Positions 14,674 through 46,772 of a stretch of DNA of 64,000 bases are shown piece after piece (the stretch's first letter is position 1; every line of letters starts with the position of its first letter). A program made the position numbers and the translations under genes. The notes beneath the pieces are model-generated. The model was not told where the DNA came from and made no database searches. It saw only the letters and a list, made by a program, of their open reading frames with translations. The stretch spans positions 62,001 through 126,000 of the forward strand of contig NZ_JASCXX010000013.1 in NCBI RefSeq assembly GCF_030012215.1, read 5' to 3'. Origin of the DNA: Anaerobaca lacustris. GTDB lineage: Bacteria > Planctomycetota > Phycisphaerae > Sedimentisphaerales > Anaerobacaceae.

Positions 14674-15279
14674 TCATTCACCCGCTCTGATGTCGCAGCG
14701 GGCGTTGTAGATGCGGCCGCCGGTGGTGCGGTAGTGCTCGAGGACGGCTCGGGCCTCGGTGCGGCAGAGATCCTGGACAACTTCGATTCGCCGGCCTTGG
14801 AGGGCGCCGACCCAGTCGGGGGGCTTGGCGCCTTCGTCGAAGCCGATGGCGCAGGCGTCTTCGCCGCGTGCGCCGCAGAGGACGCGCCGCACCCCGGACC
14901 ACGGAATCGCGCCCAGGCACATCGCACAAGGCTCGGTGCTCGTGACAAGCTCGCAGAACGTCTCGTCTGCGCCGAGGTCGTAGGAACCGACAACTTGCTG
15001 GGCCAACGCGATGGCGACCATCTCGGCGTGGGCGATGGAGCAGTTCGAAGGCTCGACGACGTTGACGCCGGGTGCGACGAGTCGTCCGCTGTCTGCATCG
15101 AAGATCGCTGCGCCGAACGGTCCGCCTGTCTGTTGCTCGACGTTTCGCCTGGCCAACTCGATGACGAATCGCATCTTCGCCTCGGCGTTGTCAAACGCGT
15201 GCTCCTGCTCGGTCCAGAGTCTCCGCAGCCAGTCCGGCAGCCGCAAAACGAGTTCGCCGCCATGCTCGTCAGGAAGCAT
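14674..15279 (-). CDS. Zinc nucleoside/guanine deaminase
   Basis: The 201-residue cytidine-deaminase-like protein has the complete zinc site: H84-A-E86 (HAEMVAI) and P-C118-A-M-C121 (STEPCAMCLGAI), with Glu86 as proton shuttle. The later segment GEDACAIGFDEG resembles guanine deaminases (GuaD) and related nucleoside deaminases. An N-terminal extension of about 30 residues (LRLPDWLRRLWTEQ) is unusual. Its start lies inside the end of the membrane-protein gene of the VWA/tubulin-like operon (11-base overlap), so it is co-translated as the last cistron of that operon. A role in nucleotide supply or signalling for the GTPase is possible but speculative. Confidence 0.9.
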   Translation of the reverse strand: MLPDEHGGELVLRLPDWLRRLWTEQEHAFDNAEAKMRFVIELARRNVEQQTGGPFGAAIFDADSGRLVAPGVNVVEPSNCSIAHAEMVAIALAQQVVGSYDLGADETFCELVTSTEPCAMCLGAIPWSGVRRVLCGARGEDACAIGFDEGAKPPDWVGALQGRRIEVVQDLCRTEARAVLEHYRTTGGRIYNARCDIRAGE

Positions 15280-17959
15280 GAGATGACGCCTGGCTGGAGG
15301 GTGTCGAGTCGGAATCCTGTGCGTCGGAACGATCCCATTGGCGCACCTGACTGGGCAGGGCAGGGTAGCCTCGCCAGCCCTGCGTCAGACCCTGAACGAT
15401 CTGAAGGACCAGGATGTCGTCTGTCCCGACGTCCCACTCGCGCCGCACCAGGGCCGGCGCCGCATCGACGCGCGACAGAGGCGCCAGCGCATCCCAGAGC
15501 AGGCTGCCGACCGCGACCACGCAAACGGCGACATCGGGTTCGGTCCGCGTCACCGGCCAGTTGGGCGATGCGCTTCGGCCGAGCAGGTGACCGGTCTTCT
15601 CCTCATCCGCGTCCAACACGGCCGCCAGGCTGACCACCGAGAGCGAGTCAATCCAGACCTTGACGACCTCCAGAGTGAACAAGACGCCGAGATCGGCGCT
15701 CTGGGCCTGAGGGTCCTGGAGGTGCCGCACGACGCACTGTGCCCACGCCTTCGGTTCGAGGGCCAGATCGTGCAGAGACTGGCCCATGCGAGATCGGAGG
15801 GTCTCCCGGAAGGCCCGGGCCAACTGGCGGTCCCAGTCCGTCGCGATGAAATCAAACAGCACCTCGCGGCCCTGCGTTGCGTCGGGCATGCCGTGACGAA
15901 GCAGCCCCTGTTGCGGATCGAGCGTCAGGCGATCGATCCACTGTATCATGGCGGTTACCTCCCGGACCAGATCGGTGTCGCCGGCGTCGACGGCGACACC
16001 CCCGACGAGCGGCTCGGGGACTTTGGGGATGCGTTCGATCAGGCGGACCCGGCCGAATCGGGGCCTCAGACCCAGCACCGCGCCGACGCCGATGAGCAGC
16101 AGTCCTGCGATATGGCAGGTCCATCGAACCGAGTCGTCGGCCTGAACGGGGCTTGGGGCCCTCAGACAGAGAATCAGCCATGCCGACGCCAGACAGAGCA
16201 GTCCGAAGGCCCGCCACGTCCAGAAGGGTGGACAGAGATGATCGGGCGCTTCCTCGTGCTTGGGCTGGTCGGGCCGGACCTGGACAGGTCCGGTCAGGAT
16301 GAGAGTGACGCCGATGACGCCCAAAAGTGCCGCGAAACCGCTCTGGATCGCTCCGGCAGGCGTCCACAGGTCAGGCCACAGCGACCACGTTACGGCGCCG
16401 ACGCCGATTGCGGCCAGGGCGATCGCCACGCCGCGTATCCACAGGGGGCAGCGCCTTCGGTAGTGGACGAGTGGAATGGACATGTCGACCTCGCGTCCCT
16501 CCGGCACCATCGTGCGGACGTGCTCGCCCCACCCGGTGGGTTGTACCGTCAGGACGGCTGCCGCCAGCGTCAGCAAAGCGCCCCCAAGCGCGAAGGCACG
16601 TTCGTGAAGGAACAGCGCCGCGGCGAGGAACAGCAATCCAAGGATCAAGAACAGAAACCCGAATCGCCAGGCCGCCTTCGCCGCCGGACGGCTCACAGCC
16701 ACCTGAGGCTGCGTCTCCACCGTCGGCGTGAAGCGGTCCGCCCAGACGGCCTGGGCGTTCTCCAGCCAGACTCTCATCGGCTGGTACGTCTGCTCGTCTC
16801 GGCGCTGAAGAGCATCGGCGGCGAGCGCACGGACGCGTTGTCGCTCGATCAGCTTGTGTCGGGTCAACAGGCGGCGAAGCTTCGGCTGAAGGCACTTGAG
16901 AAGGTGGCACAGACTCGCCAAAGGGGCACGACCACAGGCGCGGGTGACGGCGTCTGCGATCGCCTCACAGACGGCGTCATTGCGGACGGCCGGTTCATAC
17001 GGTGCGGCGGCCGGCTCCTCATCGCGGTCGGTTGGGATTTGCGACCGGACCTCGTAGATCCCCTCGATCTGTTCGACGAGGACCTGCGCCTCGTCGTCGA
17101 TCTGGCGACGGCGCTCCTCCGGCAGCGTTTCCTCGTAGAGGGCGGCGAGATCTTCGTGGACCAGCCGTTGTGCGGTCCGTGCGATCACCTCGGGCCGGTC
17201 CAGACGAATGGTCCGCACGCCAAACGATCCACAGACGCTCAAGACGTTCTCCTGCGGACAAATGCGACGGCGTTCGTTCTGACGCAGGGGGCCGCGACAG
17301 GTGATCCCGTGCTGAAGGAGAAACTGCGCGGCGAACCGATCCATCTGCTCGGGTCGTTCGAACCATGTCCCGCCGGCCGTACGTCCGTCGAGCAGGTAGA
17401 TCTTCTGGGCCAGCAGATCGTCCTGCAGGCGGGCGGTCAACGCGCTCCAGGCTTCAAACCAGACGTCGTCGAGTTCGCAGCCTGACGCTGCGGTCCGGCC
17501 CGTCAGGGCGACGACCGCCATGTCATGGGCCGGATCGGCCTTGCGGAGAAGCCTCATCATCTGCAGGGCCCGATCGACCGTCCCGGCCTGCGACAGATCG
17601 ACCAGGACGTAGGAACTCATTCGAATACGCACGGGACGGCTCGGGTCGGCAACGGGCTCCTTGGATTGCAAGGTCCGAACGAGCGAAGCAACGGCCGTCG
17701 GCAGGGCGTCGTCCGACGCATCGACGCTCTGAGCGGACACGGGGACATCGAAATCGGAAAGCCAGGTCCAGTGGGCGACCGACAGACGCCGGCCCGTCGC
17801 GTCGGCCGACAGCAGGCCGAAGGGACCCTGGACGGGAACGGTCAGGGCGCCGGCCACCTGAGAGAACTCGCAGATCGTCCGTTCCGCGCGATGGCCGACC
17901 GTGACGAACAAGACCGGCACCGGGCCGATTCCCTTCGTCTGTGTGTCATTCTCTCTCAC
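15269..17959 (-). CDS. Six-helix membrane protein with a degenerate tubulin-like N-terminus
   Basis: The 896-residue protein starts at GTG 17959, 37 bases after the tubulin-like gene. Six transmembrane helices lie at about 431-452, 455-472, 507-527, 538-557, 582-600 and 614-632. The soluble N-terminus looks like a decayed version of the upstream protein. VPVLFVTVGHRAERTICEFS occupies the place of RPTLIVGLGGTGVLVCQWVE; YVLVDLSQAGTVDRALQMMR replaces the signature-loop segment; and a SFGVRTIRLDRPEVI segment follows near 245, as in the tubulin-like family. The glycine-rich nucleotide loops are gone, so it should not bind GTP normally. The C-terminal soluble domain (about 640-896) is not recognised. 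Inferred role: membrane receptor or adaptor that co-assembles with the GTPase. The resemblance was seen by eye and needs a profile comparison. Confidence 0.8.
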   Translation of the reverse strand: MRENDTQTKGIGPVPVLFVTVGHRAERTICEFSQVAGALTVPVQGPFGLLSADATGRRLSVAHWTWLSDFDVPVSAQSVDASDDALPTAVASLVRTLQSKEPVADPSRPVRIRMSSYVLVDLSQAGTVDRALQMMRLLRKADPAHDMAVVALTGRTAASGCELDDVWFEAWSALTARLQDDLLAQKIYLLDGRTAGGTWFERPEQMDRFAAQFLLQHGITCRGPLRQNERRRICPQENVLSVCGSFGVRTIRLDRPEVIARTAQRLVHEDLAALYEETLPEERRRQIDDEAQVLVEQIEGIYEVRSQIPTDRDEEPAAAPYEPAVRNDAVCEAIADAVTRACGRAPLASLCHLLKCLQPKLRRLLTRHKLIERQRVRALAADALQRRDEQTYQPMRVWLENAQAVWADRFTPTVETQPQVAVSRPAAKAAWRFGFLFLILGLLFLAAALFLHERAFALGGALLTLAAAVLTVQPTGWGEHVRTMVPEGREVDMSIPLVHYRRRCPLWIRGVAIALAAIGVGAVTWSLWPDLWTPAGAIQSGFAALLGVIGVTLILTGPVQVRPDQPKHEEAPDHLCPPFWTWRAFGLLCLASAWLILCLRAPSPVQADDSVRWTCHIAGLLLIGVGAVLGLRPRFGRVRLIERIPKVPEPLVGGVAVDAGDTDLVREVTAMIQWIDRLTLDPQQGLLRHGMPDATQGREVLFDFIATDWDRQLARAFRETLRSRMGQSLHDLALEPKAWAQCVVRHLQDPQAQSADLGVLFTLEVVKVWIDSLSVVSLAAVLDADEEKTGHLLGRSASPNWPVTRTEPDVAVCVVAVGSLLWDALAPLSRVDAAPALVRREWDVGTDDILVLQIVQGLTQGWRGYPALPSQVRQWDRSDAQDSDSTPSSQASSHAS

Positions 17960-17996
17960 GGACGCTCACCAGCCTTCCATCGATGTTCCCGCTCGT

Positions 17997-20921
17997 TCAA
18001 AAGCTCACGACGTCCACGACGGTCACGTCGTCCCGGAACTTCCTCAGGTCTTCCCGGCAGGTGCCGAGCACGTCGCGGGCGATTCTCTGCTCGCCTTCCG
18101 GAAGGGTTCGGACCGACTCGTCGGCGCATTGCACCATGTGTTCGAGAAGGGCCAAGGCCCGATTCAATCCCTCCTGGACGGCGTCGCAGTCGGTCAACGC
18201 GATGTCCTGCAGGATCAGATCGATCCTGGAATTGGTGCCGCCCTGCAACTCGGCCAGGCGAATGGCCGCCGACGGATCACCGAGCGACCGGAGATGTTGT
18301 CGAAGTCGCTCGTTGACCGTTTCGGTCGTCCGGCGAAACGCGCCGACCTTGGCGGCGCCGGCTTCATAGACCTCTCGCTCGAGCGCATTGCCCTGCCGGG
18401 GCAGCGCGCTTCGCCATTCCGCCAAGGCACTCTGGAAGGCGGTGTACCAGTTTTTGTCCAGCCAGAGATCGGCGTACTCGAAGCCCATCCGCCGGACGTA
18501 TTCATCGGTGGCGGCAACGTACTTGCCGTATCGGCTGATCGCCTCCAGGCAGAACCCGTAGCTCAGCCGCAGGACCTGGAGCCATTCGCCGGTCCGTCGG
18601 TTGCACGCCTCCGCAACGCCCGCCTCACGCAGACTGACTTCCAGGTTGTGGGTCAGAAGCCTCGGAACGCACGAGCCCGGGACCTGCTGTGCGATGGCAA
18701 CCGACAACGGCGGGGCGTATTTGCGCGATTTGTCCAGATCGATCTTGGGCTCGGCCAGCCGCCAGATCTCACAGATGCTTCCGTAATAGGGGTGGTCGTT
18801 GATCGGTTGGCTTGCCGGCGGGCTGTTCCGGAAGAGGTCCCAGCTATGGCGTTCGATGTCGTGAAGGAACCGGTTCATGCCCTCCGACAGCCGGGCCAAG
18901 CTCTCGGCCAGCCGGTCTTCCACGGATCGGACCTCCGCCAGATCGGTCCTGGGCTCGCGGACCGAAAGCACGCAGGACTCCAGAACGGGCCGGAGCAGAC
19001 TCTGACGAAAGTCCCGGACAGCCACGGCGTCCAGAGCATCGTCCGCTTCCAGCGACAGGCACAGCGGGGTAGAGAAGAAGTCCGCCTCGCGATCTCGGCC
19101 GAATCGCGACTCGGGAGTGCCCCGCGTCCCGAGGTCCGCCAGCACGTCGCCGTTGCCGCCGGCCTTCTCGCCCACGGACCTTCGCTGCCAGGCAAGGGCG
19201 ACGACGGCCTCCAGCGCCTGCTTCCTGACTCGAAAGACGCGAACGGTGGTCTTGAGTGACTCGATCAGATTCTCGTGGAGCAGGGCCTCGGCCACCGCAG
19301 ACCAGCAGGCATCGATGGTCTTGTCGATAACGGGTACGATATCGCTCGATGTCCACGACAACGGGGGAACGCGCGTTTGAAGCGTTTCCAGGGCACTGCG
19401 GGCCTGGGTGAGAATGTCTGCGACGACGGCGTTGGCGTTGGGCGGCGCCGAGGTTTGTCTGCGGCCGAGCATGGCGTCCGCCGCTTCGGTCCAGGTGTCG
19501 AGACACGCGCCGACCTGGTTGAGCGGACGCAGTGGCTCGGCATCGAAGAAATCCCGTTCGATCATCTCGTCGGCCGCGGCCAGAAGACCTCCGATGGGCT
19601 TGTGCGAAGAGACGAGCGTCTCGGCTTCCTTTCGGGCCAGAGGGATGAGCGATCCTTCCAGGTGACGGCGAAGACCTGCCAGCACGCTCGATACGACCTC
19701 CGGCGAGGTCCCCTTGCCCGGCGGCTCCCAGAGGAACGAGATCGTCGGTTGCATGAGTTCCTTGGCGGCAGGGATGAACCTTGCATCGCCCGCGATCGCG
19801 TGCTCGACTTCGCGGCGATAGTGCGTCCGTCCGTCGTTCTGACCGGCGTTGAGGTTCTCCAGGTCCGCCAGCACGCGCGACTGGATGTTCCGCTTCCTGT
19901 GACCGGGCACGCCGCACCAGAAGCCGTAACTCGAAAAGCACTGGCGGTGGTTGTTCACCGGATCGCGCTGGGGAAGGATCTCGGCCAGCTTGTTGTTGGC
20001 GTCCGACCGCACCTGCTGGCTCAAGGGCTCGACCGTCAGGGCGCGGAGCGCGCGGGCGATGAGGCGGACGAGGTGCTTGCGGTCGCCGCTGCCCATATCG
20101 ACCTGGCCGTTGAGCAGGTAGAGGAAGTTGAACGGTCCGGTGTCACGGCGGAAGCAGTCTTCTCCGCTGCGGTCGCTGCGGTACCGGACGCGGATGTCGG
20201 ACCGCCGTTCATCGCTGAGAAACTCGATCTGGTCGAGCGTCGCACACGCGGTGGCCTCCAGCTTCGGGCGCAGCATGGGATCGACACGGAAGGCGTCGGG
20301 CAGCAGCAGGTGTCCGACGATCTCGGCCGGTTTCGGGAACGACTCGCGCGACCACCAGCGCAGGTTGTACGCCATGTCGATGAGCATTCCGGCGCCGGTC
20401 CCGCCGCACACGCTGCTGGCAATGTGCACGACCGGGGCGCCGTCGGAGGCCAGAACGAACGGGCCCGTGGTCTCGTCGAGAGGCTGCTGCGTGCTCGTGC
20501 GGAGGCTGCTGAACCGGGTGGCCACCGCTTCGTGGATGACGCTCTCGCGCAGCTCGAAGAACACGAGCCGGCCCAGACGGGGAATGCCCTGGCAGCCGTA
20601 GTCGGCGAACGTCGCGTCCTCACGAAACCCGCGCATCCAGTCCAGGTGCGGATGGAATTGCGGATAGCTGGCGTTGTCCCGCACGACCTCGCCGACGTCG
20701 AGGTAGTGGAACAGGTTGATGAAGTCCGACAGGATTCCCTCGGGCGGACCGCCGTCGTCGGAGGCGTCGGTGTCGAGCTTGAGAAAGCGAATGAAGGGCG
20801 GCACGGTGCCCAGCAGCTCTCGAATATAATGCTCGACCCACTGGCAAACGAGGACCCCGGTGCCTCCGAGACCCACGATCAACGTCGGGCGTACGACGAT
20901 AGGACTGTCACTCAGTCGCAT
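17997..20921 (-). CDS. Tubulin/FtsZ-like GTPase (Tubulin_2 type)
   Basis: This 974-residue protein carries a tubulin-superfamily GTPase domain in its first ~350 residues. The N-terminal beta-strand and glycine loop read PTLIVGLGGTGVLVC (loop 17-22), and the signature loop is VHIASSVCGGTGAGM (CGGTGAG at 172-178), matching GGGTGTG of FtsZ and tubulin. A FSSYGFWCGVPGH segment near 329-340 matches the conserved SFG region of the Tubulin_2 family. The remaining ~600 residues are helical, with conserved-looking Trp and Arg and no membrane segment, so it acts in the cytoplasm. Known: such proteins bind GTP and polymerise. The VWA protein lies directly upstream and a membrane protein directly downstream, which suggests GTP-driven assembly at the membrane. 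AAGGAA lies eight bases before the ATG. Confidence 0.9.
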   Translation of the reverse strand: MRLSDSPIVVRPTLIVGLGGTGVLVCQWVEHYIRELLGTVPPFIRFLKLDTDASDDGGPPEGILSDFINLFHYLDVGEVVRDNASYPQFHPHLDWMRGFREDATFADYGCQGIPRLGRLVFFELRESVIHEAVATRFSSLRTSTQQPLDETTGPFVLASDGAPVVHIASSVCGGTGAGMLIDMAYNLRWWSRESFPKPAEIVGHLLLPDAFRVDPMLRPKLEATACATLDQIEFLSDERRSDIRVRYRSDRSGEDCFRRDTGPFNFLYLLNGQVDMGSGDRKHLVRLIARALRALTVEPLSQQVRSDANNKLAEILPQRDPVNNHRQCFSSYGFWCGVPGHRKRNIQSRVLADLENLNAGQNDGRTHYRREVEHAIAGDARFIPAAKELMQPTISFLWEPPGKGTSPEVVSSVLAGLRRHLEGSLIPLARKEAETLVSSHKPIGGLLAAADEMIERDFFDAEPLRPLNQVGACLDTWTEAADAMLGRRQTSAPPNANAVVADILTQARSALETLQTRVPPLSWTSSDIVPVIDKTIDACWSAVAEALLHENLIESLKTTVRVFRVRKQALEAVVALAWQRRSVGEKAGGNGDVLADLGTRGTPESRFGRDREADFFSTPLCLSLEADDALDAVAVRDFRQSLLRPVLESCVLSVREPRTDLAEVRSVEDRLAESLARLSEGMNRFLHDIERHSWDLFRNSPPASQPINDHPYYGSICEIWRLAEPKIDLDKSRKYAPPLSVAIAQQVPGSCVPRLLTHNLEVSLREAGVAEACNRRTGEWLQVLRLSYGFCLEAISRYGKYVAATDEYVRRMGFEYADLWLDKNWYTAFQSALAEWRSALPRQGNALEREVYEAGAAKVGAFRRTTETVNERLRQHLRSLGDPSAAIRLAELQGGTNSRIDLILQDIALTDCDAVQEGLNRALALLEHMVQCADESVRTLPEGEQRIARDVLGTCREDLRKFRDDVTVVDVVSF

Positions 20922-20970
20922 ATGCTGTTTCCTTAAGCCTTTTCAGGCGACTCTTGGGTCTCTTTTTCGC

Positions 20971-23900
20971 TCAGACGCCGAAATCGGCATCGGTTGGTTT
21001 TTCCTCGGTCTGCGGCGCGCCGTTTCGGATCTTTACACTGACGCGGATCGATCTGGACATGCCACCCATCTCATAGCCCAGATCCAGAGCGATTGACACA
21101 GCCTGTCCCTTCTCGGGGATCGAGGTTGAACCGCCCTGGCTGGACCACACCCGGCCTTTCCTTGCGAGCGGCCCCGTCCAGACGCACAGAAGCCCTTTCT
21201 GAACGCGGCCGACACCGGCGCCGATCCTCGGTGTGATCAGGGCCCAGGCCCATCGTCGCGGCAAGACGGCCCGTCTGAGGATCACCCCGGCCGCCACGAA
21301 CGTCACGGCGAGCAGTCTGGCGCCGGCCGCCTTCGAGCGGCTCAGCGCGTGGGCGACGTGCAGGTCGATGTCGCTCGCCAGCGAGCTTGGAACCAGTTCG
21401 ATTGCTACGGGGCTCCGGAGTGATGCAGGTTCGACGGTGGCCACGCTCTCCTCGAGCCGAACGTCGAGGTCGAGCCGGCTCGGATGCGGCGCCAACATCT
21501 TCAGTCCAAACACGGCCAGCAGTGCCAGCACCGCGGCCGCCAGCACCCACCAGCACCACGGCACGACCTGGGCCGTCACGATGTCCACAATGGCCACTTC
21601 GGTCCATTCTGCAATCGGCGAACCGCCGGTGCCGTCGGACGGCTGGAATGCTGCCGAGGCCACGACGGCATACCGTTGCGTCGCGGGCCCTCTCGGCCAA
21701 CCCCAGAACCCGCGCGGGGCCAGCGCCGGGAGGACCCTCACGGGGTCGGCGCCGTCGCGTGCGTCGAACGTGCGCGTCGAGGCGCCCTGGGCCTCAAGCT
21801 CCTGCAAGAATCTCACAGAGAGGTCGGTCGCGGCCATCGGGTCGTCGCTGCACGGCCACAGATAGATCGTCGTCGCGCCTCGGGTCCATTGGCCGGCCAG
21901 TTCGGGCGCCGCGCGGAACACCGGTCGCGCCCACAATCCCGTCGATCCGTCGAGGTCGATGCGGCCCTCGGCCGCGACGATCTCAGGCCCTGTCCGGTGT
22001 CCGCTGAAGGCAAGCCGTTCCAGCAGCGGTGAGAGAACACGCACGTTCGGATAGTCCCAGCGAACCAGTTCCTGCCCGTGCGACGACAGCCGAAATTGCA
22101 CGGTACCGTCGATGGGGGTCTGCAAGGGAGGCAGCAGGTCGGGCCCCTTCAGCGATAGCGACGTGGCCTCAGGGCCGGCCGATCCGACGGCGCGGACGCT
22201 TCCCTCCTGCCAGACGGGCTGCGCCGACGGCAACTGGAATTGGAAGGCCATCGCCGAAACCTGCGGCGCCGCTCCATTGTCTTTGCGCACGGTGACTTTG
22301 TATTCGAAGGGCCACTGTCGGACGCGCGGCGTGATCCACGCGGCCGGCGCACGGACGGGGGCGATCTCGTGGGGTTGGATCGACAGCACCACGGGCGTGG
22401 TGAGGCTGGCGACAACCTGCCCGCTCCGGCGGTCTCGGCCTATCACCTCCACCGCATACTGGCCGTTGTCCGCGACCTGTGCTTCGTGCGTAAGCGGTCT
22501 TTCAGCGGTTAACTCCCCTTCGGTGGATGCCACAACAGCCCAAGGCGCGTCCGGCGATGAACGACGCAGGACCCGCAGGGCGATCGTCAGCGGCGCGGTG
22601 GTCCAGTGGACCGGCCGCACGGCAAGCCGCAGGCGCGTGGAGAGCTGCGTTGTCATGGGTGACAGACCACCCGAGCCGGCAGCCCACGCCTGGGAATCGA
22701 AAAGAGAATCCTGTTGCGACGACGTCACTCTCTGGATGCTCAATGCCAGCCGAGGTTCGCGGATCGCCAGATGACCGTTCGCGCGTTGCGTCGCGGGGGC
22801 GGCCGGTTCCCCGGCGAATTCAGCGGTCATCTCTACAACGGCCCGCCCGGTATGGCGGGGGGTATAAGGGGCATAGCCCTTCAATTCGCATCGTGTGGCT
22901 CGGCCCTCGCTCACGTCGCTGGCAACCAGGGTCGTCCATTCGATCGATTCGGTCGCATCGTGCACCTGGCCGGACGGCGATGTCACGGTCACACGGCACG
23001 ACGTCTTGACCTGGTCGATCAGCGCGTTGTGCTGCGCGTTGCCCGCGATGTACCCGCCGAAAACGACCCGCAACGGGATCTGGACCGGCTCCCAGGGGTA
23101 GCCAGCGATGTCCCTGCCTGCCTCCTCCCCGATGGCCAGCTCTTCGAGGAGCAGCCTTCGATCGCGGGCGTGGAACCGGCCGCCCCGGAGCCTGATTTCT
23201 GCCGGAGGCGCTTCACTCGAAGGCTTCGTCGTCACGTATACGTGGACCGGATAGGTCTGTCCGGACCGGAGCCCGGGCAAGGTTCGTTCGAGCGATGTCT
23301 GGTGGCTGTCCGAGGCGATCGGCATCTCCACGACCAGAGGTTCATCCGGCTCGGGACGCGCGATCTCGAAGCGAACGGCCGAGACATTCTGGTTCGCCTG
23401 CCATTGGGCCGTGAACCGAACGGGTTCGCCGCAGAAGATGGTTTCCGCAAGGCCCTGCGGCGATGTATTCTCGGGCGGCTGATCCAGCGTCCATCTGAGG
23501 AGGCCGGCCGCGATGGGGTCGACGACCCCGTACGTCTTCACACCACCCTGGAGACCTTCGATCGATCCTTCGAGGCTGATCTCACATTGATCGGCGCGGG
23601 GCAGCGGAATCTCGGACTCCAGGGCATAGACGGCCGTCAGGGTGCGTCCCTTGGGGCCCGTTGGTTTTGGCACCTCCACCAGGCGTCCTCGCGGCGTCAT
23701 CACCTGGGCCGTCCCGCTGGTCAGATCGACCGTTCGGATGCGCGCGCCGCTCAGCGTATCGGGGAACATCGCCAGCACCCGCTCGCGGTCGCGCTCGAAC
23801 ACGGGGAACGCCGAGACCGTCAACAGTTGCCGATGCAGCTCACCGGTCCACAACGCAGCACGCGGCTCGGCAAAAGCCGATTCGATCCGCACCGGCGCCG

Positions 23901-25653
23901 GTCGATACACCAATTCGAAGCGGGGCAATCGAAACGGCAGCAGGCTCCCCGCCACTTCGACCTCGACCTCGGCCCAGCCGGAGATCCGCTCCTCGCCTTC
24001 AGGCAGTTCCACGAACTCGGTGACGAGACTTGCGTCCGCGTCCTTCCGGAAGCTCCAGTTCGTCTGTGCCAGAGGCTCGACGCGGAGCACGCCGGACGTG
24101 GGTTTGGCGCCGAACGTTCCTTCCGGCGAGAGGCGAAAGGACACGCGCTGACCGCCATGCAACTCGATGGAGAGCGGCTCGGATGCCCCGGACAACGGGC
24201 CAAGCACCTCACGCGAGGCGTCCAGAACGCTCAGGCCGAAGCAGGGCGGGTGAACGAGGACCTCGCTGGTCGCGTCGAGCAGCACGGCATTCGTATCGGC
24301 GATCGTGTGGATCAGTTCCGCTCGGAAGTCGTACAGGCCGAACGTCTCGACCGTGAAGGGATCGCTTTCGTAGAGGCGCAATGGGGACGTCCATCGACCG
24401 GCGTCCAGACGCCGAGGCTCGTCCTGGCCCTGCGATCGCGCGGTCAGCCGGACGGAGAGATGGCCCGACGGATCGACCCGATGGGCGGACCCTGCCCCTT
24501 TGTGACGATCGACGACGTGCGCTGCCAGGCGCGTCTGCTGATGGGCCCACCAGGGGGATCCGGGCCGGGGCTCCAGTTGCAGCGCGAAGCCGGGTATTCG
24601 GTACATCCGCACTTCGGTCTGAGGTGAAAGCGTCCAGTATCCTTCCCAGGCGCGCTCGACTTGACCGTCCGTATCCGGCCGGCGCAGAATCGTGGTGTGC
24701 CACTGGCTCGACGTCACGCTGCTGAGGCGAATCCCCGAGCGGGCTTCGAACTGTCCATCGACGGCCCACACACCAGGGGACGCTTGCGATGTTTCAGCGG
24801 CCGGCGCGATGCTGACCGATGCCGGTACCGGCCCGACGACGGCAGTCGCCCAATCGTATCGACTGACCGGCGATCCTTCGGCCAGCGGAGTCCCCAGGCC
24901 GAAGACGTCCATCAAGATATCGGGCAGACCCGTCGTCGGTGTGATACGGTAGGCTTTGCCGTCGGTCAGCGACGCCAGGGCCGTCAGCATCGCCTCGGCC
25001 GTTCGCTCCGTCGCGGTCGGCGCGGCAATGGGCGCCCCGGCGCGATGCGACCCTCTGTTGAGGATGACCGGATAGATGCGGACGTTCTGTTGGGCGAGCC
25101 GGGTCGCTGCGTCAGACAAGGGACCACCGGCCTCGATGTCGCGGACGGCGGCATCGCGCGGGTCGCCCCGACTGAGGAGAACGATCTTGCCCGGCCCGTC
25201 GCCGTGCTGCCGCCGGGCCGCCTGGATCCGTGCCAAGGCCCATGCCAACGGCCGGTCGATCTCGGCGTTGAAGGTCCCCGTGAAGTCCGGGGAGCGAACC
25301 ATGTTGCGACAGGCCGCTTCATTGAGATAGCTGCCGCCCCAGGCCAGAAGGGGGGCCGTATCTTCGCTGGGCAACGCGTAACGCACGCGGTCGGAGAAAT
25401 GGCACACACCGATGTAGAGGTCGGAATGGATGTAGGGCAGAAGCTGCATGGCCACCAGTTGTGCGTCGGCCCGCAGCGTGGTCCGGCGGCCGCGGGCGTC
25501 CTCGGCGGGACTGTCCGTTCGCTCCATGCTTCCGGAGACATCGATGGCGATCACCACATAGCAGGGCTGCGAGGCCACAGGCATCGGCTCGGCCGCACCG
25601 ACGGCGGCAACGGCAAAACCTGTCAGCAGGATGAACAATGCTCGTCTATCCAT
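20971..25653 (-). CDS. Giant periplasmic von Willebrand A protein with C-terminal membrane anchor
   Basis: The 1560-residue protein has a signal peptide (1-20), then a VWA domain beginning CYVVIAIDVSGSME, with the metal site DxSxS at 38-42. The segment that usually reads LTDG is LLSRGDP here, so one metal-site Asp is replaced by Arg. A very long beta-rich part (about 250-1350) made of Ig-like or fibronectin-like stretches follows. A single transmembrane helix lies near 1365-1387 (CWWVLAAAVLALLAVFGL), with a basic cytoplasmic tail of about 173 residues. The topology lets it sense or bind something outside and contact the cytoplasmic tubulin-like protein encoded next. VWA domains mediate metal-dependent protein binding. 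GAGGG precedes the ATG. It is far longer than typical VWA partners of MoxR ATPases, and no MoxR gene is near. Confidence 0.9.
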   Translation of the reverse strand: MDRRALFILLTGFAVAAVGAAEPMPVASQPCYVVIAIDVSGSMERTDSPAEDARGRRTTLRADAQLVAMQLLPYIHSDLYIGVCHFSDRVRYALPSEDTAPLLAWGGSYLNEAACRNMVRSPDFTGTFNAEIDRPLAWALARIQAARRQHGDGPGKIVLLSRGDPRDAAVRDIEAGGPLSDAATRLAQQNVRIYPVILNRGSHRAGAPIAAPTATERTAEAMLTALASLTDGKAYRITPTTGLPDILMDVFGLGTPLAEGSPVSRYDWATAVVGPVPASVSIAPAAETSQASPGVWAVDGQFEARSGIRLSSVTSSQWHTTILRRPDTDGQVERAWEGYWTLSPQTEVRMYRIPGFALQLEPRPGSPWWAHQQTRLAAHVVDRHKGAGSAHRVDPSGHLSVRLTARSQGQDEPRRLDAGRWTSPLRLYESDPFTVETFGLYDFRAELIHTIADTNAVLLDATSEVLVHPPCFGLSVLDASREVLGPLSGASEPLSIELHGGQRVSFRLSPEGTFGAKPTSGVLRVEPLAQTNWSFRKDADASLVTEFVELPEGEERISGWAEVEVEVAGSLLPFRLPRFELVYRPAPVRIESAFAEPRAALWTGELHRQLLTVSAFPVFERDRERVLAMFPDTLSGARIRTVDLTSGTAQVMTPRGRLVEVPKPTGPKGRTLTAVYALESEIPLPRADQCEISLEGSIEGLQGGVKTYGVVDPIAAGLLRWTLDQPPENTSPQGLAETIFCGEPVRFTAQWQANQNVSAVRFEIARPEPDEPLVVEMPIASDSHQTSLERTLPGLRSGQTYPVHVYVTTKPSSEAPPAEIRLRGGRFHARDRRLLLEELAIGEEAGRDIAGYPWEPVQIPLRVVFGGYIAGNAQHNALIDQVKTSCRVTVTSPSGQVHDATESIEWTTLVASDVSEGRATRCELKGYAPYTPRHTGRAVVEMTAEFAGEPAAPATQRANGHLAIREPRLALSIQRVTSSQQDSLFDSQAWAAGSGGLSPMTTQLSTRLRLAVRPVHWTTAPLTIALRVLRRSSPDAPWAVVASTEGELTAERPLTHEAQVADNGQYAVEVIGRDRRSGQVVASLTTPVVLSIQPHEIAPVRAPAAWITPRVRQWPFEYKVTVRKDNGAAPQVSAMAFQFQLPSAQPVWQEGSVRAVGSAGPEATSLSLKGPDLLPPLQTPIDGTVQFRLSSHGQELVRWDYPNVRVLSPLLERLAFSGHRTGPEIVAAEGRIDLDGSTGLWARPVFRAAPELAGQWTRGATTIYLWPCSDDPMAATDLSVRFLQELEAQGASTRTFDARDGADPVRVLPALAPRGFWGWPRGPATQRYAVVASAAFQPSDGTGGSPIAEWTEVAIVDIVTAQVVPWCWWVLAAAVLALLAVFGLKMLAPHPSRLDLDVRLEESVATVEPASLRSPVAIELVPSSLASDIDLHVAHALSRSKAAGARLLAVTFVAAGVILRRAVLPRRWAWALITPRIGAGVGRVQKGLLCVWTGPLARKGRVWSSQGGSTSIPEKGQAVSIALDLGYEMGGMSRSIRVSVKIRNGAPQTEEKPTDADFGV

Positions 25654-25679
25654 AATCCCTCAAGAATGCGGACGGTATC

Positions 25680-28259
25680 TCAAGCGTCCGGATGATCGGA
25701 CGCCTCCGTGCCGTCATCATGCGAATCGACATGTTCCTTCGCCAACGTCTTTGCGCCGGGTAGATGCTCCTTGACCTCTGCAATGCGCCGGACGATGTCC
25801 TGTTCTCCGATCCGCTGTACGGCTTCGTCCGTGAGCCCGTTTGCCCATGCATCGATCGCATCGAGCACCTGCCTCTGTATGCGCGGCGGGTCTTGGGCAT
25901 GGGGGGCCGTGAGATAGACGCACGTCGCGACGCGCCGGACCTGGTCGCGGCTGTCGAATCCCATGTCCATCGCCCAGGTGATGTATTCGCGGGCTTCCTT
26001 GACCTTCGCCGGCTCGGCATCCAGCAGTTGTTCGGCCGTCGCCAGGCAACGCGCCTTCTCGCACGATTCGAGAAACAGGCGCACCGGATTGCGCGGGTCC
26101 GATCGAGTGGTCGTCCGGGCCTTTCCCGTCGGCCAGTGGGCAAGGCATGTGCCGGCGATCTCTTCCATCTCGGCGATCTTCTCCAGCGTCGCATCCGCTA
26201 AAGCCGGTTCGAGCGTATTGCACACACGATTCCAGAGATGCAGAAACCGCCCAGGGTCCGCGTGAAGCCTTCGAAACGCTCGATCCAGAAGCGGACCTGC
26301 ACGGCGCAGCAGATTGTGCGGGCGATCCCGCTGGTCGTCCAGGGCATCTGAGGCCGGCTCGTACAGCAGACGGCCGGCCGCCTGCTCCAAAGCGGCTCGC
26401 ATGTCCGCCCGCGCTTCCGAGTCGGTGTCACGGGATGACTCGCCGATCAGGCCGAACAGCGGCGCGATCGTTGCCCACGAGTCGGGGCGAAGACTCAGCG
26501 CTTCGGCCAGGACCGCCTCCATCTTCTCGGAGGAAAGGCCTTCTCGCGGCAACATGGCCAAGGCGGTCTGAAGACGATGGCGCGCCTGGTGTGCGTCAAG
26601 CTGCGCTCGAAGACGCGGCCAATCCTCGATCTGGCCGTTCGGGTCGTTGAAATGGCACTCCGCCAGCGCCGTGTATGCGGCGTCCGGGACCGGCGTCGTC
26701 CAGTCCGCGGGCCAACTCGTGCGAAGCTGCCGCAGCGACTCCCGGATTCTCTTGCGAACGTCCAGCCGTCGCAAGCGGACGACGTGCCGCTCGGCCCGGA
26801 AAGAGAGTTCGTTCAGAAGTCCCCCCACCTCCTCCGCAGCCTGTGGAGCGAGGCGGGCCCTGTGCTCGTCCAGCCTGTGTCGGAGGTCCTCCGCCTGTCG
26901 TTCGGCGGGCGCCAGGCTCGTGAGTTTGCAGAACCGCTCCAACTCGGAGACGAGCTTGGCACAGGCTCTCTGGAGCTGAAGCTGTTCGAGTTCCTTTTCG
27001 GCGTGGTGTATCGACAGCAGTTCGGCATCCACCCTGGCGAGAAGGTCGCCGCGGCGATCTTGAGAGTCCAGAGCGCAGAGAACCCTTCGCTGGACTTGCA
27101 GGCGGCAGCGCGCCAGTTCGAAGTTGCCCGCAACGACGAGATTCTCGATCTCTGCCAGTTCTTCCTGGGCCAACTGCTCGGCCCGCTGCCCGGGACTCGT
27201 GCCACGGGTCAGTGAGGACGGGACTAGGTTGCCCGGAAGAAGCGCCGCCGCTTCAGCATGGCGATCCTGCAGGCATGAGGAGAGATCATCGTCGCATTCC
27301 GGCCCGGACTCCCCGCCGTGCACAGTGGACGCGCGGCGATCACCCCAAAGCCGCAGCGAACGGGGCCGCTGCCAGTCGTCCAGGTCTTCGACCGTCTGCT
27401 GACGATTCAGCAGGCGGGCCCGAGAGGCGAGATGGCAGGTCAATCGGTTCACAGACCTGTACGTCGGATCGCTCAGAATGGACCATCGCGACGAAGACGT
27501 GTCACCATTGCCCGAAGGGGAGGCTGCAGCGGCTGGCGGATGTATCTCGTCGTCGGTATTCCGCTGAGCCGATTCGGCCCCCAGCCAGAAGAGCTTCGTA
27601 TCCTCGGGAAGCTGGGCGAAGAACTCCGTCAACTCACCGTCCACGGCGCCGGTGAGGTTGTCGGTCGCCGAAGCGACTTCGATCACGTTGAGCAGGTTGA
27701 AGCAGGCGGCCGGCAAGCCCGGCGCCGGCAGGGTGGTATTCGCCTGCGATGCAATCGCCGATCGTGCCAGGTCCTGAACGCCATCGAGCCTTCCCAGACG
27801 GATGCACAGCACGCCTCGATTGTTGTAGGCCAGAAGGCGCAGATGCGATTCGTGGCAACGGGTCTGAAGAAAGGCGTCGTAATAGCTGACAGCGGCCTCG
27901 AAGCGATCGGTCAGCTCGTTGAGCCAGGCGGCGCCCCACAGGAAACGGGCCCGTATGTTCGGCTGGTCCCAACGCCACTGGCATAGAGATTCCACGCGCG
28001 TTCGGAGCGGGTCGATATTCTCGCCGGGCCCACCCCGGCGATACAGGGACTGCAATCGAACGAGCAACTCCTCCGTCAGGGCCTCGAGGTAGGGAGCTTC
28101 GAGGGCGCGTTCGAGCGGCTGCTCCGTCGCCCCGTCGGACGACTTGGCCGGATGGTACCGGTCCACCTTGCCGTCGAAGACCATCTGCGCCAGAGAGGCC
28201 GGCATGACCTTCACTTCACGGTTGTCGACACGAACCCTCAGCATGGAACTCTCGTCCAC
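25680..28259 (-). CDS. Helical-repeat (TPR-like) protein, first gene of the VWA/tubulin-like operon
   Basis: The 859-residue protein starts at GTG 28259; an in-frame ATG at 28244 (MLRVRVDNREVKVM) is a good alternative. After a short beta N-terminus (MLRVRVDNREVKVMPASLAQ, MVFDGKVDRY) the rest is almost wholly helical. A TPR-like pair lies near 115-170 (WGAAWLNELTDRFEAAVSYY, LAYNNRGVLCIRLGRLDG), then a low-complexity linker near 235-260, a heptad-rich stretch around 390-500 and an Arg/Glu-rich C-terminus. No signal peptide or membrane helix is seen. It ends 26 bases before the VWA gene, so they are one transcript. It probably serves as a cytoplasmic scaffold for the VWA/GTPase system; I know no named family for it. 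Confidence 0.8.
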   Translation of the reverse strand: MDESSMLRVRVDNREVKVMPASLAQMVFDGKVDRYHPAKSSDGATEQPLERALEAPYLEALTEELLVRLQSLYRRGGPGENIDPLRTRVESLCQWRWDQPNIRARFLWGAAWLNELTDRFEAAVSYYDAFLQTRCHESHLRLLAYNNRGVLCIRLGRLDGVQDLARSAIASQANTTLPAPGLPAACFNLLNVIEVASATDNLTGAVDGELTEFFAQLPEDTKLFWLGAESAQRNTDDEIHPPAAAASPSGNGDTSSSRWSILSDPTYRSVNRLTCHLASRARLLNRQQTVEDLDDWQRPRSLRLWGDRRASTVHGGESGPECDDDLSSCLQDRHAEAAALLPGNLVPSSLTRGTSPGQRAEQLAQEELAEIENLVVAGNFELARCRLQVQRRVLCALDSQDRRGDLLARVDAELLSIHHAEKELEQLQLQRACAKLVSELERFCKLTSLAPAERQAEDLRHRLDEHRARLAPQAAEEVGGLLNELSFRAERHVVRLRRLDVRKRIRESLRQLRTSWPADWTTPVPDAAYTALAECHFNDPNGQIEDWPRLRAQLDAHQARHRLQTALAMLPREGLSSEKMEAVLAEALSLRPDSWATIAPLFGLIGESSRDTDSEARADMRAALEQAAGRLLYEPASDALDDQRDRPHNLLRRAGPLLDRAFRRLHADPGRFLHLWNRVCNTLEPALADATLEKIAEMEEIAGTCLAHWPTGKARTTTRSDPRNPVRLFLESCEKARCLATAEQLLDAEPAKVKEAREYITWAMDMGFDSRDQVRRVATCVYLTAPHAQDPPRIQRQVLDAIDAWANGLTDEAVQRIGEQDIVRRIAEVKEHLPGAKTLAKEHVDSHDDGTEASDHPDA

Positions 28260-29132: not shown

Positions 29133-29516
29133 TCAGCGATCGATGGGTTCCATGATGTACTTGATGAGGTCCCTTCGGCTGATGATGCCGACGAGGCGCC
29201 CGTCCGAGAGGATGGGCACCCTCCGCAGATGGTTTTTGGTCAGGCACTCACACACGGCGATGATGTCATCGTTCTCGTCGAAGCTCAGGACCTCTTCGGT
29301 CATATAGTCCCGAGCCGTTCCGGATGGCGTTTCCTGACCGACAAGGAGACCGATCATGTCCTTTTCGGTTACGATGCCCACGAGCTCGCCGTCGGACTCG
29401 ACGACGGGGACACCGGTGATGTCGTTTTCGATCAGGAGTTCCAGGACTTGACCAATTGGCGTCTCCGGATGGACGTGCACGACGTCCCTTGACATGATGG
29501 CCTTTGTCTCATACAT
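29133..29516 (-). CDS. CBS-pair protein
   Basis: From the ATG at 29516 (AAAGG eight bases upstream) the protein is 127 residues and consists only of two CBS motifs. The first contains VVHVHPETPIGQVLELLIEN, DITGVPVVESDGELVGIVTE. The second contains DENDDIIAVCECLTKNHLRR and VPILSDGRLVGIISRRDLIK. CBS pairs bind adenosine nucleotides and act as energy sensors. It lies 41 bases after a close paralogue on the same strand. The longer open frame upstream (from 29585) runs into the paralogue's end and has no ribosome site. Confidence 0.93.
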   Translation of the reverse strand: MYETKAIMSRDVVHVHPETPIGQVLELLIENDITGVPVVESDGELVGIVTEKDMIGLLVGQETPSGTARDYMTEEVLSFDENDDIIAVCECLTKNHLRRVPILSDGRLVGIISRRDLIKYIMEPIDR

Positions 29517-29557
29517 AGCGAAGCCTTTCGGTTGCCGCCGGGGCAACAATCGTTGTC

Positions 29558-29956
29558 TTACGCCGAGGCACTCTGCGTGAGCCACTGCTGTTTGATGTGC
29601 TTGACGATGTCCTTCCTGCTGATGATTCCGACGAGCGTGCCGTCGCTCAGAATCGGGACGCGCCGGAAGTGGTGCGCCGCCAGACCCTCAGCGATGGCCG
29701 TCACGGCGTCCTCCTGACCGTAGGCGACGACCGACCGCGTCATGAAATCCTCGACCGCGCCGGGCCGATCCTCGATTTCGTAGAGCAGCCGCAGAACGTC
29801 CTTCTCCGTGACGATTCCGACCAGCATCCGATTCTCGTCGACCACAGGAAGTCCGGTAACATTGTTTTCGACCATGATTCGTATGGCCCGGTAGATATCC
29901 GCATCCGCTGCCACGGCCAGTACGTTCGTCTTCATGATGTCTTTTGCCTTCAGCAT
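29558..29956 (-). CDS. CBS-pair protein (tandem paralogue)
   Basis: This 132-residue protein comes from the ATG at 29956 with GGAGG nine bases upstream; a TTG at 29971 is in frame but badly placed. It has two CBS motifs: AADADIYRAIRIMVENNVTG, LPVVDENRMLVGIVTEKDVL and AVTAIAEGLAAHHFRRVPIL, SDGTLVGIISRKDIVKHI. It is clearly related along its whole length to the following gene, so a local duplication is likely, and the two may form mixed dimers. The gene is divergent from parA, with both promoters in the 284-base space between. Confidence 0.93.
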   Translation of the reverse strand: MLKAKDIMKTNVLAVAADADIYRAIRIMVENNVTGLPVVDENRMLVGIVTEKDVLRLLYEIEDRPGAVEDFMTRSVVAYGQEDAVTAIAEGLAAHHFRRVPILSDGTLVGIISRKDIVKHIKQQWLTQSASA

Positions 29957-30131
29957 CTGGCGAACCTCCAAGGGCTATACGGGTCCCATAACCAATGATC
30001 CCTATGTCCAGTGCTCTTATCGGCAGCCCTATGACGGGACATAAGGATTTCCTTGGGCTTGCGTCTGTCGAGCGGCGCTCTGGCGGCACTTTCCGGCACG
30101 GCCTTGTCGCGTCGGCAGGTCGGTTTTTTAC

Positions 30132-30161: not shown

Positions 30162-30240
30162 AGAAGTAACGGATGCGCGGGTGACGACCGAACGGAGGCG
30201 ATTCAATCCCTGATGCAGTTGGCTCGACTCTACTGGCGTG

Positions 30241-31050
30241 ATGCAGATCATAGCCGTTTCAAATCAGAAGGGGGGGTGCGGCAAAACGACCACCTCGATC
30301 AATCTGGCCGGGGCCTTCGCTCGGATGAGCTACAAGGTTCTGCTGGTGGACTGCGATCCGCAAGGACATGCCACGCTCGGTCTGGGATACGACCCGGCCC
30401 AACTCGACGCCACGGTCTACGATGTCATGACCGGGTCTGTCGATTCGGTGGCATCGGTCGCCCGGCGAACCGGCATGGATGGCCTTGACCTTCTGCCGGC
30501 CAATATGCTGCTGACCGGGATCGAGATGGAGTTGCACAATGTGCCCGGAAAGGAGCTGATCCTGGGCGAGCAACTGCGCGTCCTTTCCGATTGGTACGAC
30601 GTGTGCCTGATTGACTGCCCATCGACGCTCGGCCTGGTCATGCTGAACGCTTTGACCGCCAGCACGAGCGTGGTCGTTCCGGTCCAGGCGCACTTCTACG
30701 CCATTGACGGTCTCAAGCGACTCCTTGAGACGATTGAGGTGATGCGCACGCGATTTCACCCTTGCCTGGTCCGACCGCTCGGATTGGTGTTGACGTTCGT
30801 CGAGGGTCGAACGCTGCTGAGCCAGCGGGTGGAAGAGGGTCTGCGCGATTTGTTCGGGCCGCTGGTCTTCGACACCGTCATCCACAAGACCATCACGTTG
30901 GCCGAGGCGCCAAGCATGGGCCAGGCGATCCAAACCTATGCGCCCGACAGCAGGGGAGCCGCAGAATATGAGGCCCTCGCCCGCGAAATTCTGGGCCGGC
31001 TCCACAGGCCGGACGTCATCGACATCCCTGCCCACGAGATGCCCCTGTAG
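30241..31050 (+). CDS. parA: ParA/Soj-family ATPase (orphan)
   Basis: This 269-residue deviant-Walker ATPase starts at ATG 30241, with a GTG directly before it. Walker A is SNQKGGCGKTTTSINLA with the signature lysine before GG, the switch I segment is VLLVDCDPQGHATLGLG, and the Walker B-like strand is CLIDCPSTLGLVMLNAL. The last part (TITLAEAPSMGQAIQTYAP) is typical of chromosomal ParA. Known: ParA dimers on DNA segregate parS-ParB complexes or position other cargo. No parB is adjacent; instead ftsW and murG follow, so it may position cell-wall or division machinery, or pair with a distant parB. An independent promoter precedes ftsW. Confidence 0.92.
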   Translation: MQIIAVSNQKGGCGKTTTSINLAGAFARMSYKVLLVDCDPQGHATLGLGYDPAQLDATVYDVMTGSVDSVASVARRTGMDGLDLLPANMLLTGIEMELHNVPGKELILGEQLRVLSDWYDVCLIDCPSTLGLVMLNALTASTSVVVPVQAHFYAIDGLKRLLETIEVMRTRFHPCLVRPLGLVLTFVEGRTLLSQRVEEGLRDLFGPLVFDTVIHKTITLAEAPSMGQAIQTYAPDSRGAAEYEALAREILGRLHRPDVIDIPAHEMPL

Positions 31051-31092
31051 GCGGCATAGGCTCGGCCTTTTTTTGCAGATTGAAACGCGGGT

Positions 31093-31121
31093 TTGCCGAA
31101 AGGTAAACTGGGGGATATACT
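31093..31121 (+). promoter_or_regulatory. Promoter of ftsW-murG
   Basis: TTGCCG (31093-31098), 17 bases, TATACT (31116-31121). The likely start site near 31128 would leave only ~12 bases before the GTG at 31140, which favours the ATG at 31176. Confidence 0.6.
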
Positions 31122-31175
31122 CTATGGCGTCCCCACGAGGTGGCAATCAGAGAAGTGTTTAGAGCCAATGATGTT

Positions 31176-32354
31176 ATGAACGATCCACAGGGCCGGCTGG
31201 CCGATTACATCGCCATGGTGATCGTCTTTCTGATGGGCATCGGGGCGGTGATGGTCTTCTCGGCCGGGGCGAACCTCGGCTACGAGTTCGACCTGAGGCG
31301 GTTCTACGACTTCCCCGCCCTGCGGCAGATCATGTTCTTCCCGTTGGCGGTCGTGGTTCTGCTGGTCGCCTCGTGTCTCGACTACCGATGGCTGCGGCTT
31401 CGCGACCGCTGGTGGAAATCGCTCCCGGTCTGGCTGGTCTTCGTCTCGATCGTTCTGCTGGGCGTCGTTCTCATCCCGCAATTGGGCACCCAGATCAACC
31501 AGGCGAGGCGCTGGCTTCGTCTGACGGTCGGGCCGGTCAGCATCAGCTTTCAGCCGTCCGAACTGGCCAAATGGGCGATGGTGTTCGGCCTTGCCGCCGC
31601 ATGCGCCAGGAGCGGGCCGAATGCGCGTCGCTACTGGACGTGGTTCGTCCCTCTGTGCCTGTTGATCGGGCTGGTCTGCGGGTTGATCGTGGTGGAGGAC
31701 TTCGGCACGGCCGTGTTCGTCGCCCTGATCAGCTTTGTGATTCTCGCCATCGCCGGCGTCCGGTGGTGGCACGTTCTGACGTTGCTGCCGTTCGCCGGCG
31801 GTGGACTGATCGCTGGCCTGATCCACTCGCCGCATCGCATCAAGCGCCTGCTGGCCTTCCTGCGCCCGGAGGAGTGGGCCGACGTCGCCTATCAGGCGAA
31901 TCAGTCGCTGATTGCCATCGGCTCCGGCGGGCTCTGGGGCAAGGGGCTCGGCGAGGGGATCTCCAAGTACGGCCATCTGCCCGAGGACACGACGGATTTC
32001 ATCTTTGCCATCGTAGGAGAAGAGCTGGGGCTGATCGGCACGATTGGGGTCATTGGCTTGTTCATCGTGTTCGTTGGCCTCGGCTGGGTGGTGGTGATGC
32101 GTTGCCGCGACCGGTTCGGCAGGCTCCTGGCGGCCGGCATCGTCCTGACGATCAGCATCCAGGCGGCGATCAACATCGGGGTTGTGACGGTCGTTCTGCC
32201 GACCAAGGGGATTCCGCTGCCCTTCATCAGCTCGGGGGGCACGAGCATGTTGTTGTCGGCCGCGGCCGTGGGCGTGCTGCTCAATATTGCCTCGCAGACC
32301 GATCGCAGCGATTCCGATATGTGCGACCGTGCCGATGGCGATTCCGATGTCTGA
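31176..32354 (+). CDS. ftsW: FtsW/RodA-family peptidoglycan polymerase (SEDS)
   Basis: The ATG at 31176 gives 392 residues beginning MNDPQGRLADYIAMVIVFLM; a GTG at 31140 would add 12. About ten transmembrane helices are visible. SEDS hallmarks are present: FQPSELAKWAMV, VVEDFGTAVFVAL, AYQANQSLIAIGSGGLWGKG, FIFAIVGEELGLIG and PFISSGGTSMLL. The protein polymerises lipid II at the septum (FtsW) or wall (RodA). The neighbouring murG argues for FtsW, as in division-cell-wall clusters. The C-terminal tail is Asp/Ser-rich. It shows that the organism makes peptidoglycan. Expressed with murG 38 bases downstream. Confidence 0.93.
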   Translation: MNDPQGRLADYIAMVIVFLMGIGAVMVFSAGANLGYEFDLRRFYDFPALRQIMFFPLAVVVLLVASCLDYRWLRLRDRWWKSLPVWLVFVSIVLLGVVLIPQLGTQINQARRWLRLTVGPVSISFQPSELAKWAMVFGLAAACARSGPNARRYWTWFVPLCLLIGLVCGLIVVEDFGTAVFVALISFVILAIAGVRWWHVLTLLPFAGGGLIAGLIHSPHRIKRLLAFLRPEEWADVAYQANQSLIAIGSGGLWGKGLGEGISKYGHLPEDTTDFIFAIVGEELGLIGTIGVIGLFIVFVGLGWVVVMRCRDRFGRLLAAGIVLTISIQAAINIGVVTVVLPTKGIPLPFISSGGTSMLLSAAAVGVLLNIASQTDRSDSDMCDRADGDSDV

Positions 32355-32392
32355 CAGGGTTCCACGTGGACTGACCAGCAGGGAGGCTGCCG

Positions 32393-42734: not shown

Positions 42735-42785
42735 GGGGTGTTTGACAACCATTGAGTGCTCCGCAAACGGAGGTGGATAGAGACA

Positions 42786-44892: not shown

Positions 44893-46772
<1,880 letters not shown>

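Follow-up and report, generated by a model that had tools for sequence, protein, structure and literature searches.

The window analysed here is a 64,000-nucleotide stretch of the Anaerobaca lacustris genome (contig NZ_JASCXX010000013.1, positions 62,001 to 126,000). The host assembly comprises 5.7 Mb in 117 contigs, and its named relatives are metagenome-assembled genomes of Phycisphaerae, Phycisphaerales and Sedimentisphaerales. The window carries a reverse-strand operon of four genes, A to D, followed by a gene E (Table 1). Gene C encodes a tubulin-like protein and lies between an apparently exported VWA protein (B) and a membrane protein (D) whose N-terminus resembles a degenerate tubulin. 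The gaps A-B, B-C and C-D measure 26, 49 and 37 bases, respectively, and D and E overlap by 11 bases. All five open reading frames (ORFs) have a third-position GC of 0.75-0.82, the genome's own coding signature. A sequence-only reading of this DNA had described five reverse-strand ORFs, and the ORF check gave exactly the same coordinates and spacing. It had also counted the deaminase gene E (PF00383 in Pfam, E=1.2e-17) as part of the operon, which did not hold. Gene E was rejected as a fifth component because only two close relatives carry it beside D (loci L025 and L032); other, unrelated genes occupy this position in L027, L028, L029, L030, L031 and L080. The conserved unit is therefore A-B-C-D and not a set of five genes. 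No tRNA gene or Rfam element was found in the window.

Table 1. Features of the operon in the window (numbering of the window) and related clusters on Thermaceae plasmids (numbering of each locus).
Feature	Location	Strand	Description
Gene A	25680..28259	-	859 amino acids; GTG start, ATG 5 codons inside
Gene B	20971..25653	-	1560 amino acids; predicted signal peptide, divergent VWA domain, long periplasmic region (probably beta-rich), one membrane helix, C-terminal tail
Gene C	17997..20921	-	974 amino acids; Tubulin_2/FtsZl1; N-terminal GTP-binding domain and long helical C-terminal region
Gene D	15269..17959	-	896 amino acids; putative degenerate tubulin-like domain, six membrane helices, C-terminal helical domain
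Gene E	14674..15279	-	201 amino acids; cytidine/nucleoside deaminase-like; accessory neighbour outside the conserved module
Divergent VWA domain of B	24874..25557	-	Residues 33-260; hhalign to B'
Membrane helix of B	21490..21546	-	Single strong helix, residues ~1370-1388; hydropathy 2.3-2.8 in all 9 orthologues
T1 loop of C	20856..20873	-	GLGGTG; invariant in orthologues
T4 loop of C	20388..20408	-	CGGTGAG; invariant in orthologues
Tubulin-like domain of D	17300..17926	-	Residues 12-220; putative, degenerate; hhalign and Foldseek
Membrane helices of D	16073..16684	-	Six, residues 426-629; hydropathy; AlphaFold2 helices 428-631
Thermaceae cluster	L112:7069-14622		vWA, Tubulin_2, ~680-amino-acid protein, BrxL
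Thermaceae cluster	L115:8314-16273		vWA, Tubulin_2, ~680-amino-acid protein, BrxL
Thermaceae cluster	L116:8009-16086		vWA, Tubulin_2, ~680-amino-acid protein, BrxL

To assess the distribution of the operon, gene order was compared across related genomes. Relatives share the order A-B-C-D, and the proteins match over almost their whole length at identities that fall to about 44% for A, B and D and to 67% for C (67-88% among C orthologues). Genes flanking the operon were common only to the closest genomes. As the flanks, gene E and the genes following D differ between loci, this conservation is not mere synteny, and the operon that had been proposed from the sequence is co-conserved in its four-gene form. 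A far more distant counterpart, A'-B'-C'-D', has the same order in two genomes (G275 and G523) of another planctomycete family. Profile comparison with hhalign gave E=1e-20 for C against C' and E=1.2e-5 for B against B'. Among 89 genomes of the host family, D was found in 12, which are exactly the holders of a C orthologue: all six genomes of the host genus (g1) and six of the nine in a second genus (g40). Both C and D are absent from the other three g40 genomes. The 12 holders are kin, so they represent fewer than 12 independent events. A search of 392 genomes of the phylum returned D from the host genome only, and in the data searched D proper is confined to two genera. Genome G080 carries two C and two D genes (L084, L085, L121, L122); the C of one module copy is strongly diverged (46% identity to the window C), as is one D. 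In the whole-genome search, the D frame of G073 (TGA) and that of G005 (TAG) each contained one in-frame stop, possibly a match edge or an assembly error. Downstream of D in g40, on the same strand, lies a gene for an ABC transporter ATPase (L029:15828-17656, L030:8175-10027, L031:15691-17516, L080:2844-3842), with an ABC-2-type permease gene as well in L029, L030 and L031. This ATPase may be a lineage-specific partner.

The product of gene C matched Tubulin_2 (PF13809) with E=6.8e-37 and 128 bits, against a curated cut-off of 27; this is the FtsZl1 family of Makarova and Koonin. A sequence search of the PDB gave weak coiled-coil-type matches only. An AlphaFold2 model of C (22 sequences; predicted local distance difference test (pLDDT) score 65) was compared with PDB structures using Foldseek. 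It gave 44 matches at E<=0.001, the best being CetZ (E=5e-6), FtsZ, TubZ and eukaryotic tubulins. The T1 and T4 glycine loops are intact, as had been read from the sequence, and so is the LDTD strand. Taken together, profile and model place C in the tubulin superfamily with intact GTP loops, in agreement with the sequence-only reading. A QxDxxN stretch after H7 (QRDPVN) is a candidate for the T7 loop, though its conservation, limited to near relatives, is too narrow to confirm it. A working T7 loop in C would imply hydrolysis on polymerisation. Altered glycine loops (GVGGIG/GGAGSG and similar) occur in other planctomycete Tubulin_2 proteins (L062, L063, L091-L094). In three of these loci (L062, L063 and L094), read by eye, the Tubulin_2 ORF starts with what resembles a protein-kinase glycine loop and follows an FHA-like ORF.

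Sequence searches with D in Pfam, NCBIfam, PADLOC and the PDB returned nothing. In an AlphaFold2 model built from 11 orthologues with no templates, strands and helices alternate over residues 16-220. A Foldseek search of 350,542 chains with this model returned phage TubZ first (E=3.1e-3, probability 1.00), and TubZ, CetZ and FtsZ filled ranks 1-5. By profile comparison with hhalign, residues 1-260 of D matched a tubulin N-domain profile at S1-T1-H1 (E=5e-5, score ~40), and a second, co-linear segment (residues 184-219) matched S6-H6 (E ~0.003). Since the signal was resolved only by restricting the query to the N-terminal domain and using a deeper tubulin profile, two nulls were run. Scores did not exceed 17.6 across 33 windows taken from A and B, or 21.8 when the columns were shuffled 100 times. 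An independent match to the tubulin N-domain (2.5e-5) came from D', the distant counterpart. The T1 position of D reads VGHRAER/VGPCAER and the T4 position DLSQAGT. Both glycine motifs are absent in all 11 aligned D orthologues, and GTP binding by D is therefore not expected. The tubulin-like domain is followed by a long helix, the six membrane helices and the helical C-terminal domain. With an even number of membrane crossings, both soluble domains would lie on one side, presumably in the cytoplasm. These analyses argue with moderate strength that the N-terminus of D is a tubulin-like domain that lacks the nucleotide loops and is joined to six membrane helices. D had previously been read as a six-helix membrane protein; the helices stand, by hydropathy and in the model, and the kinship to tubulin had been missed. 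A parallel case with solid statistics was observed in G230 (L088:8451-14058), where an intact Tubulin_2 gene is directly followed by a second one (2.6e-12) whose T4 is ruined (ADPLASG) and whose T1 is altered (GLGSFG).

The product of gene A is a soluble and probably all-helical protein with no match in Pfam, the PDB or PADLOC. Its orthologues share 43-65% identity and are always encoded by the first gene of the operon. A matched A' weakly (E ~6e-4) in two co-linear stretches, and A' matched TPR_17 at 0.0026, below the family cut-off. Gene A thus probably encodes a TPR-like scaffold. The VWA domain of B is divergent, reaching 0.014 at best in Pfam among 9 orthologues. B' is a VWA_2 protein (8.5e-14), and B was assigned as a VWA protein through its match to B'. 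In the metal ion-dependent adhesion site (MIDAS) of B, D38 and S40 are invariant, the third Ser is not conserved and (T/S)(N/H/R)G stands in place of TDG. A further hydrophobic stretch, around residue ~1447, is weaker and variable (0.9-1.8), and about 170 residues follow the membrane helix. A PDB sequence search with B gave no match. B is thus predicted to be an exported protein with a divergent VWA domain, a membrane helix and a cytoplasmic tail. The VWA partner beside the tubulin gene and the membrane linkage of the operon were both supported.

Operons combining FtsZl1 and vWA genes have been described before and were proposed to function in membrane remodelling, and Planctomycetes were among the known holders of the family (Makarova and Koonin 2010, PMC2875224). 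The window operon resembles them in the N-terminal FtsZ-like domain with a long helical C-terminus, the adjacent exported or membrane vWA protein and the lineage-specific membrane partners (PMC2875224). It differs by its fixed A-B-C-D set and by a membrane partner that appears to be a degenerate tubulin relative. OmpA-family and P-loop GTPase/kinase genes are frequent, though not universal, in the published operons (PMC2875224). None was found in the window operon or the flanking genes examined, in line with the absence of OmpA and separate GTPase genes already noticed from the sequence. Tubulin and vWA genes also occur together in GTPase-centric conflict systems predicted around GAP1-N2 (Kaur et al. 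2020, PMC7159879). These share a tubulin with a helical C-terminus and a membrane-bound vWA protein with a beta-strand-rich domain, and the Firmicutes versions carry two tubulin-domain genes (PMC7159879). In contrast to these systems, the host genome has no GAP1-N2 protein and the operon no TRAFAC GTPase. The published GAP1-N2 tubulin theme is restricted to Firmicutes and Actinobacteria, and BREX is not mentioned by Kaur et al. (PMC7159879). The sequence-only reading thus stands for the tubulin, the VWA protein, the operon and the membrane link, and is not supported for the deaminase and for division (see below). It passed both refutation checks that came with it, on the conservation of gene order and on the place of C in the tubulin superfamily, and it had missed the conflict-system reading (PMC7159879).

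A tblastn search of plasmids with a related Tubulin_2 revealed three Thermaceae plasmids with the gene order vWA, Tubulin_2, third protein and BrxL, annotated only as tubulin-like proteins (Table 1). The order of the first three genes is that of B, C and D, and the tubulin N-domain is homologous (E=3e-30 against a profile with C among its members). Unlike the window operon, these clusters have no gene A and are linked to BrxL, and their third protein has no membrane helices and is not significantly similar to D. The L116 cluster adjoins HmaB/HmaC-like genes and the L112 cluster a BREX/DISARM-like helicase and a methyltransferase. The Thermaceae vWA-tubulin version may well be a defence part. 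A TROVE-domain gene was also seen upstream of the L115 cluster, and two copies of one IS701-family transposase flank the trio in L112. Further degenerate tubulins were suggested by eye among third proteins from Thermaceae and Azospirillum and for the gene downstream in G191, but the matches were not significant.

FtsZ was searched for in related genomes. No match to PF00091 was found in the six genomes of the host genus, the most complete of which reaches 99%, whereas 13 of the 14 controls matched; FtsZ is thus undetected in this genus, in line with the earlier remark that many Planctomycetota lack it. Upstream of the operon, window positions 30238-33538 carry genes for a ParA/MinD-type ATPase, FtsW/RodA and MurG in a row, like a remnant of a division and cell wall (dcw) cluster without ftsZ. 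The presence of FtsW and MurG genes indicates that a cell-wall route exists. Two tandem, diverged genes for CBS-domain pairs (29133-29971) lie closer to the operon and are kept in the closest relatives. Farther away, the ORFs at 41796-50143 form a run with PilM-, PilB- and PilT-like starts that resembles a cluster for type IV pilus assembly.

Pairs of tubulins and membrane-tethered FtsZ systems are known, as in BtubA/B, alpha/beta tubulin and FtsZ-FtsA/SepF. The window operon would be like them in having two tubulin-fold partners or a membrane-anchored polymer. It would differ from all of these in that a polytopic membrane protein with a degenerate tubulin domain would itself serve as the anchor. 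We favour, with a probability of about 0.45, the interpretation that A-B-C-D forms a membrane-anchored tubulin assembly. The fold assignments, topology signals and co-inheritance above were obtained computationally; how the proteins would interact, polymerise, sense and act is inferred. The tubulin-like domain of D would face the cytoplasm; fixed to the membrane and without catalytic activity, it would serve as a partner or as a platform for nucleation. GTP-loaded C would assemble on it at the inner membrane, as an intact/degenerate tubulin pair. Through its VWA domain and the following region, B would sense conditions outside the cell or in the periplasm, changing state on binding something, and its tail would gate the C/D assembly. 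A would bridge the parts by its helical repeats, and the result would be a membrane-associated polymer or ring, local, switchable and distinct from the main division ring, that remodels or reinforces the envelope or signals across it.

Several points weigh against this interpretation. The alignment gave no firm assignment of T6-H7-T7 in C, and this region was likewise not assignable in FtsZl1 for Makarova and Koonin (PMC2875224). No demonstration of Tubulin_2 polymerisation was found in the literature searched. The MIDAS of B is incompletely conserved, and that its tail touches C or D is conjecture. The model of D, limited by the depth of its alignment, is of moderate confidence (mean pLDDT 70.5, predicted template modelling score 0.39), and its best Foldseek E goes no lower than ~3e-3. 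Profile comparison did not pick up the T4 region in the middle of D. Full-length D was not significant against C or D' in hhalign, including in the direct comparison of D with D'.

The tubulin likeness of D could in principle reflect fold convergence in an unrelated, Rossmann-like alpha/beta membrane protein, as the Foldseek E-values are modest and the lower ranks include Ras-like and other alpha/beta folds. However, two profile matches that are co-linear and in the right order, the first far above both nulls, tubulins at all five top ranks and the parallel degenerate Tubulin_2 gene in G230 make convergence improbable. A simpler role for the operon would be constitutive membrane remodelling or vesicle formation, with B and D as structural anchors and no sensing step. 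This is what Makarova and Koonin 2010 (PMC2875224) proposed for FtsZl1 operons. It fits the membrane parts found in every such operon examined, as well as the ABC transporter genes that follow D in g40 (the ATPase gene, joined by the permease gene in three loci). Still, the filament-forming element (T7) of C is not confirmed, an exported VWA protein suggests ligand recognition, and most relatives in the same family lack the operon, so we regard constitutive remodelling as unlikely. Replacement of FtsZ as the division ring is the least probable of all. The genus without a PF00091 match has the operon in six of six genomes, and genes for FtsW and MurG are found upstream at a distance of 3-5 kb. 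Yet FtsZ-less family members that are at least 90% complete (e.g. G011, G022, G024, G029) lack Tubulin_2 as well as FtsZ, three g40 genomes are without the operon, and C is very divergent from FtsZ and belongs to PF13809, not PF00091. Because well-completed FtsZ-less relatives also do without it, the operon is no general FtsZ substitute, and the division role proposed earlier was rejected on its distribution across the family genomes.

Alternatively, the operon could be a biological-conflict system, acting against invaders or by self-sacrifice. B would detect an envelope signal linked to an invader or to stress, and a GTP-dependent C/D assembly would then disrupt the membrane or recruit an effector. 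The same was predicted for the tubulin-vWA GAP1-N2 systems (Kaur et al. 2020, PMC7159879). The Thermaceae trio followed by BrxL in three plasmids and the patchy presence of the operon among family genomes are also consistent with such a role. The Thermaceae loci, however, represent one lineage, and all six genomes of the host genus retain the operon, unlike typical defence islands. The neighbours in the window (ABC/efflux genes, CBS proteins, ParA, FtsW, MurG) include no defence gene, no effector domain was found, and the whole host genome has no match to GAP1-N2 (PF20013) or BrxL. With no PF20013 match in the genome and no partner GTPase gene in the operon, membership in the GAP1-N2 systems was rejected; A-D were likewise rejected as catalogued defence proteins, since PADLOC returned nothing. 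For lack of a defence neighbour, GAP1-N2 and BrxL, we rank conflict second for the window operon and consider it a tentative alternative to the membrane-anchored assembly.

The kind of system is therefore already known, and we judge the window operon to be a new, distinct variant that has no OmpA, no P-loop GTPase and no GAP1. Also new, in our judgement, is recognising the constant partner of C as a polytopic degenerate tubulin. No report of this variant or of a degenerate-tubulin partner was found in the open-access literature searched by keyword, and no experimental function for Tubulin_2 proteins in the literature searched. Tubulin_2 spans many prokaryote lineages, for which membrane remodelling and conflict both stand as ideas. 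The Thermaceae version linked to BrxL is present in named, sequenced strains, and the defence idea is directly testable there. For Planctomycetota, a conserved membrane partner that is a degenerate tubulin would offer a concrete and testable mechanism, in which an intact/degenerate tubulin pair is pinned to the membrane, and the host genus holds this pair with no detectable FtsZ. More speculatively, FtsZ-less bacteria may keep a heterotypic tubulin machine, in which C as the active tubulin co-assembles with the nucleotide-free pseudo-tubulin D, polytopic in the inner membrane, while an exported VWA receptor acts as the gate. The trio of vWA, tubulin and degenerate tubulin might then be a signalling module of ancient origin, redeployed for envelope control in Planctomycetota and, with BrxL, for defence in Thermaceae.

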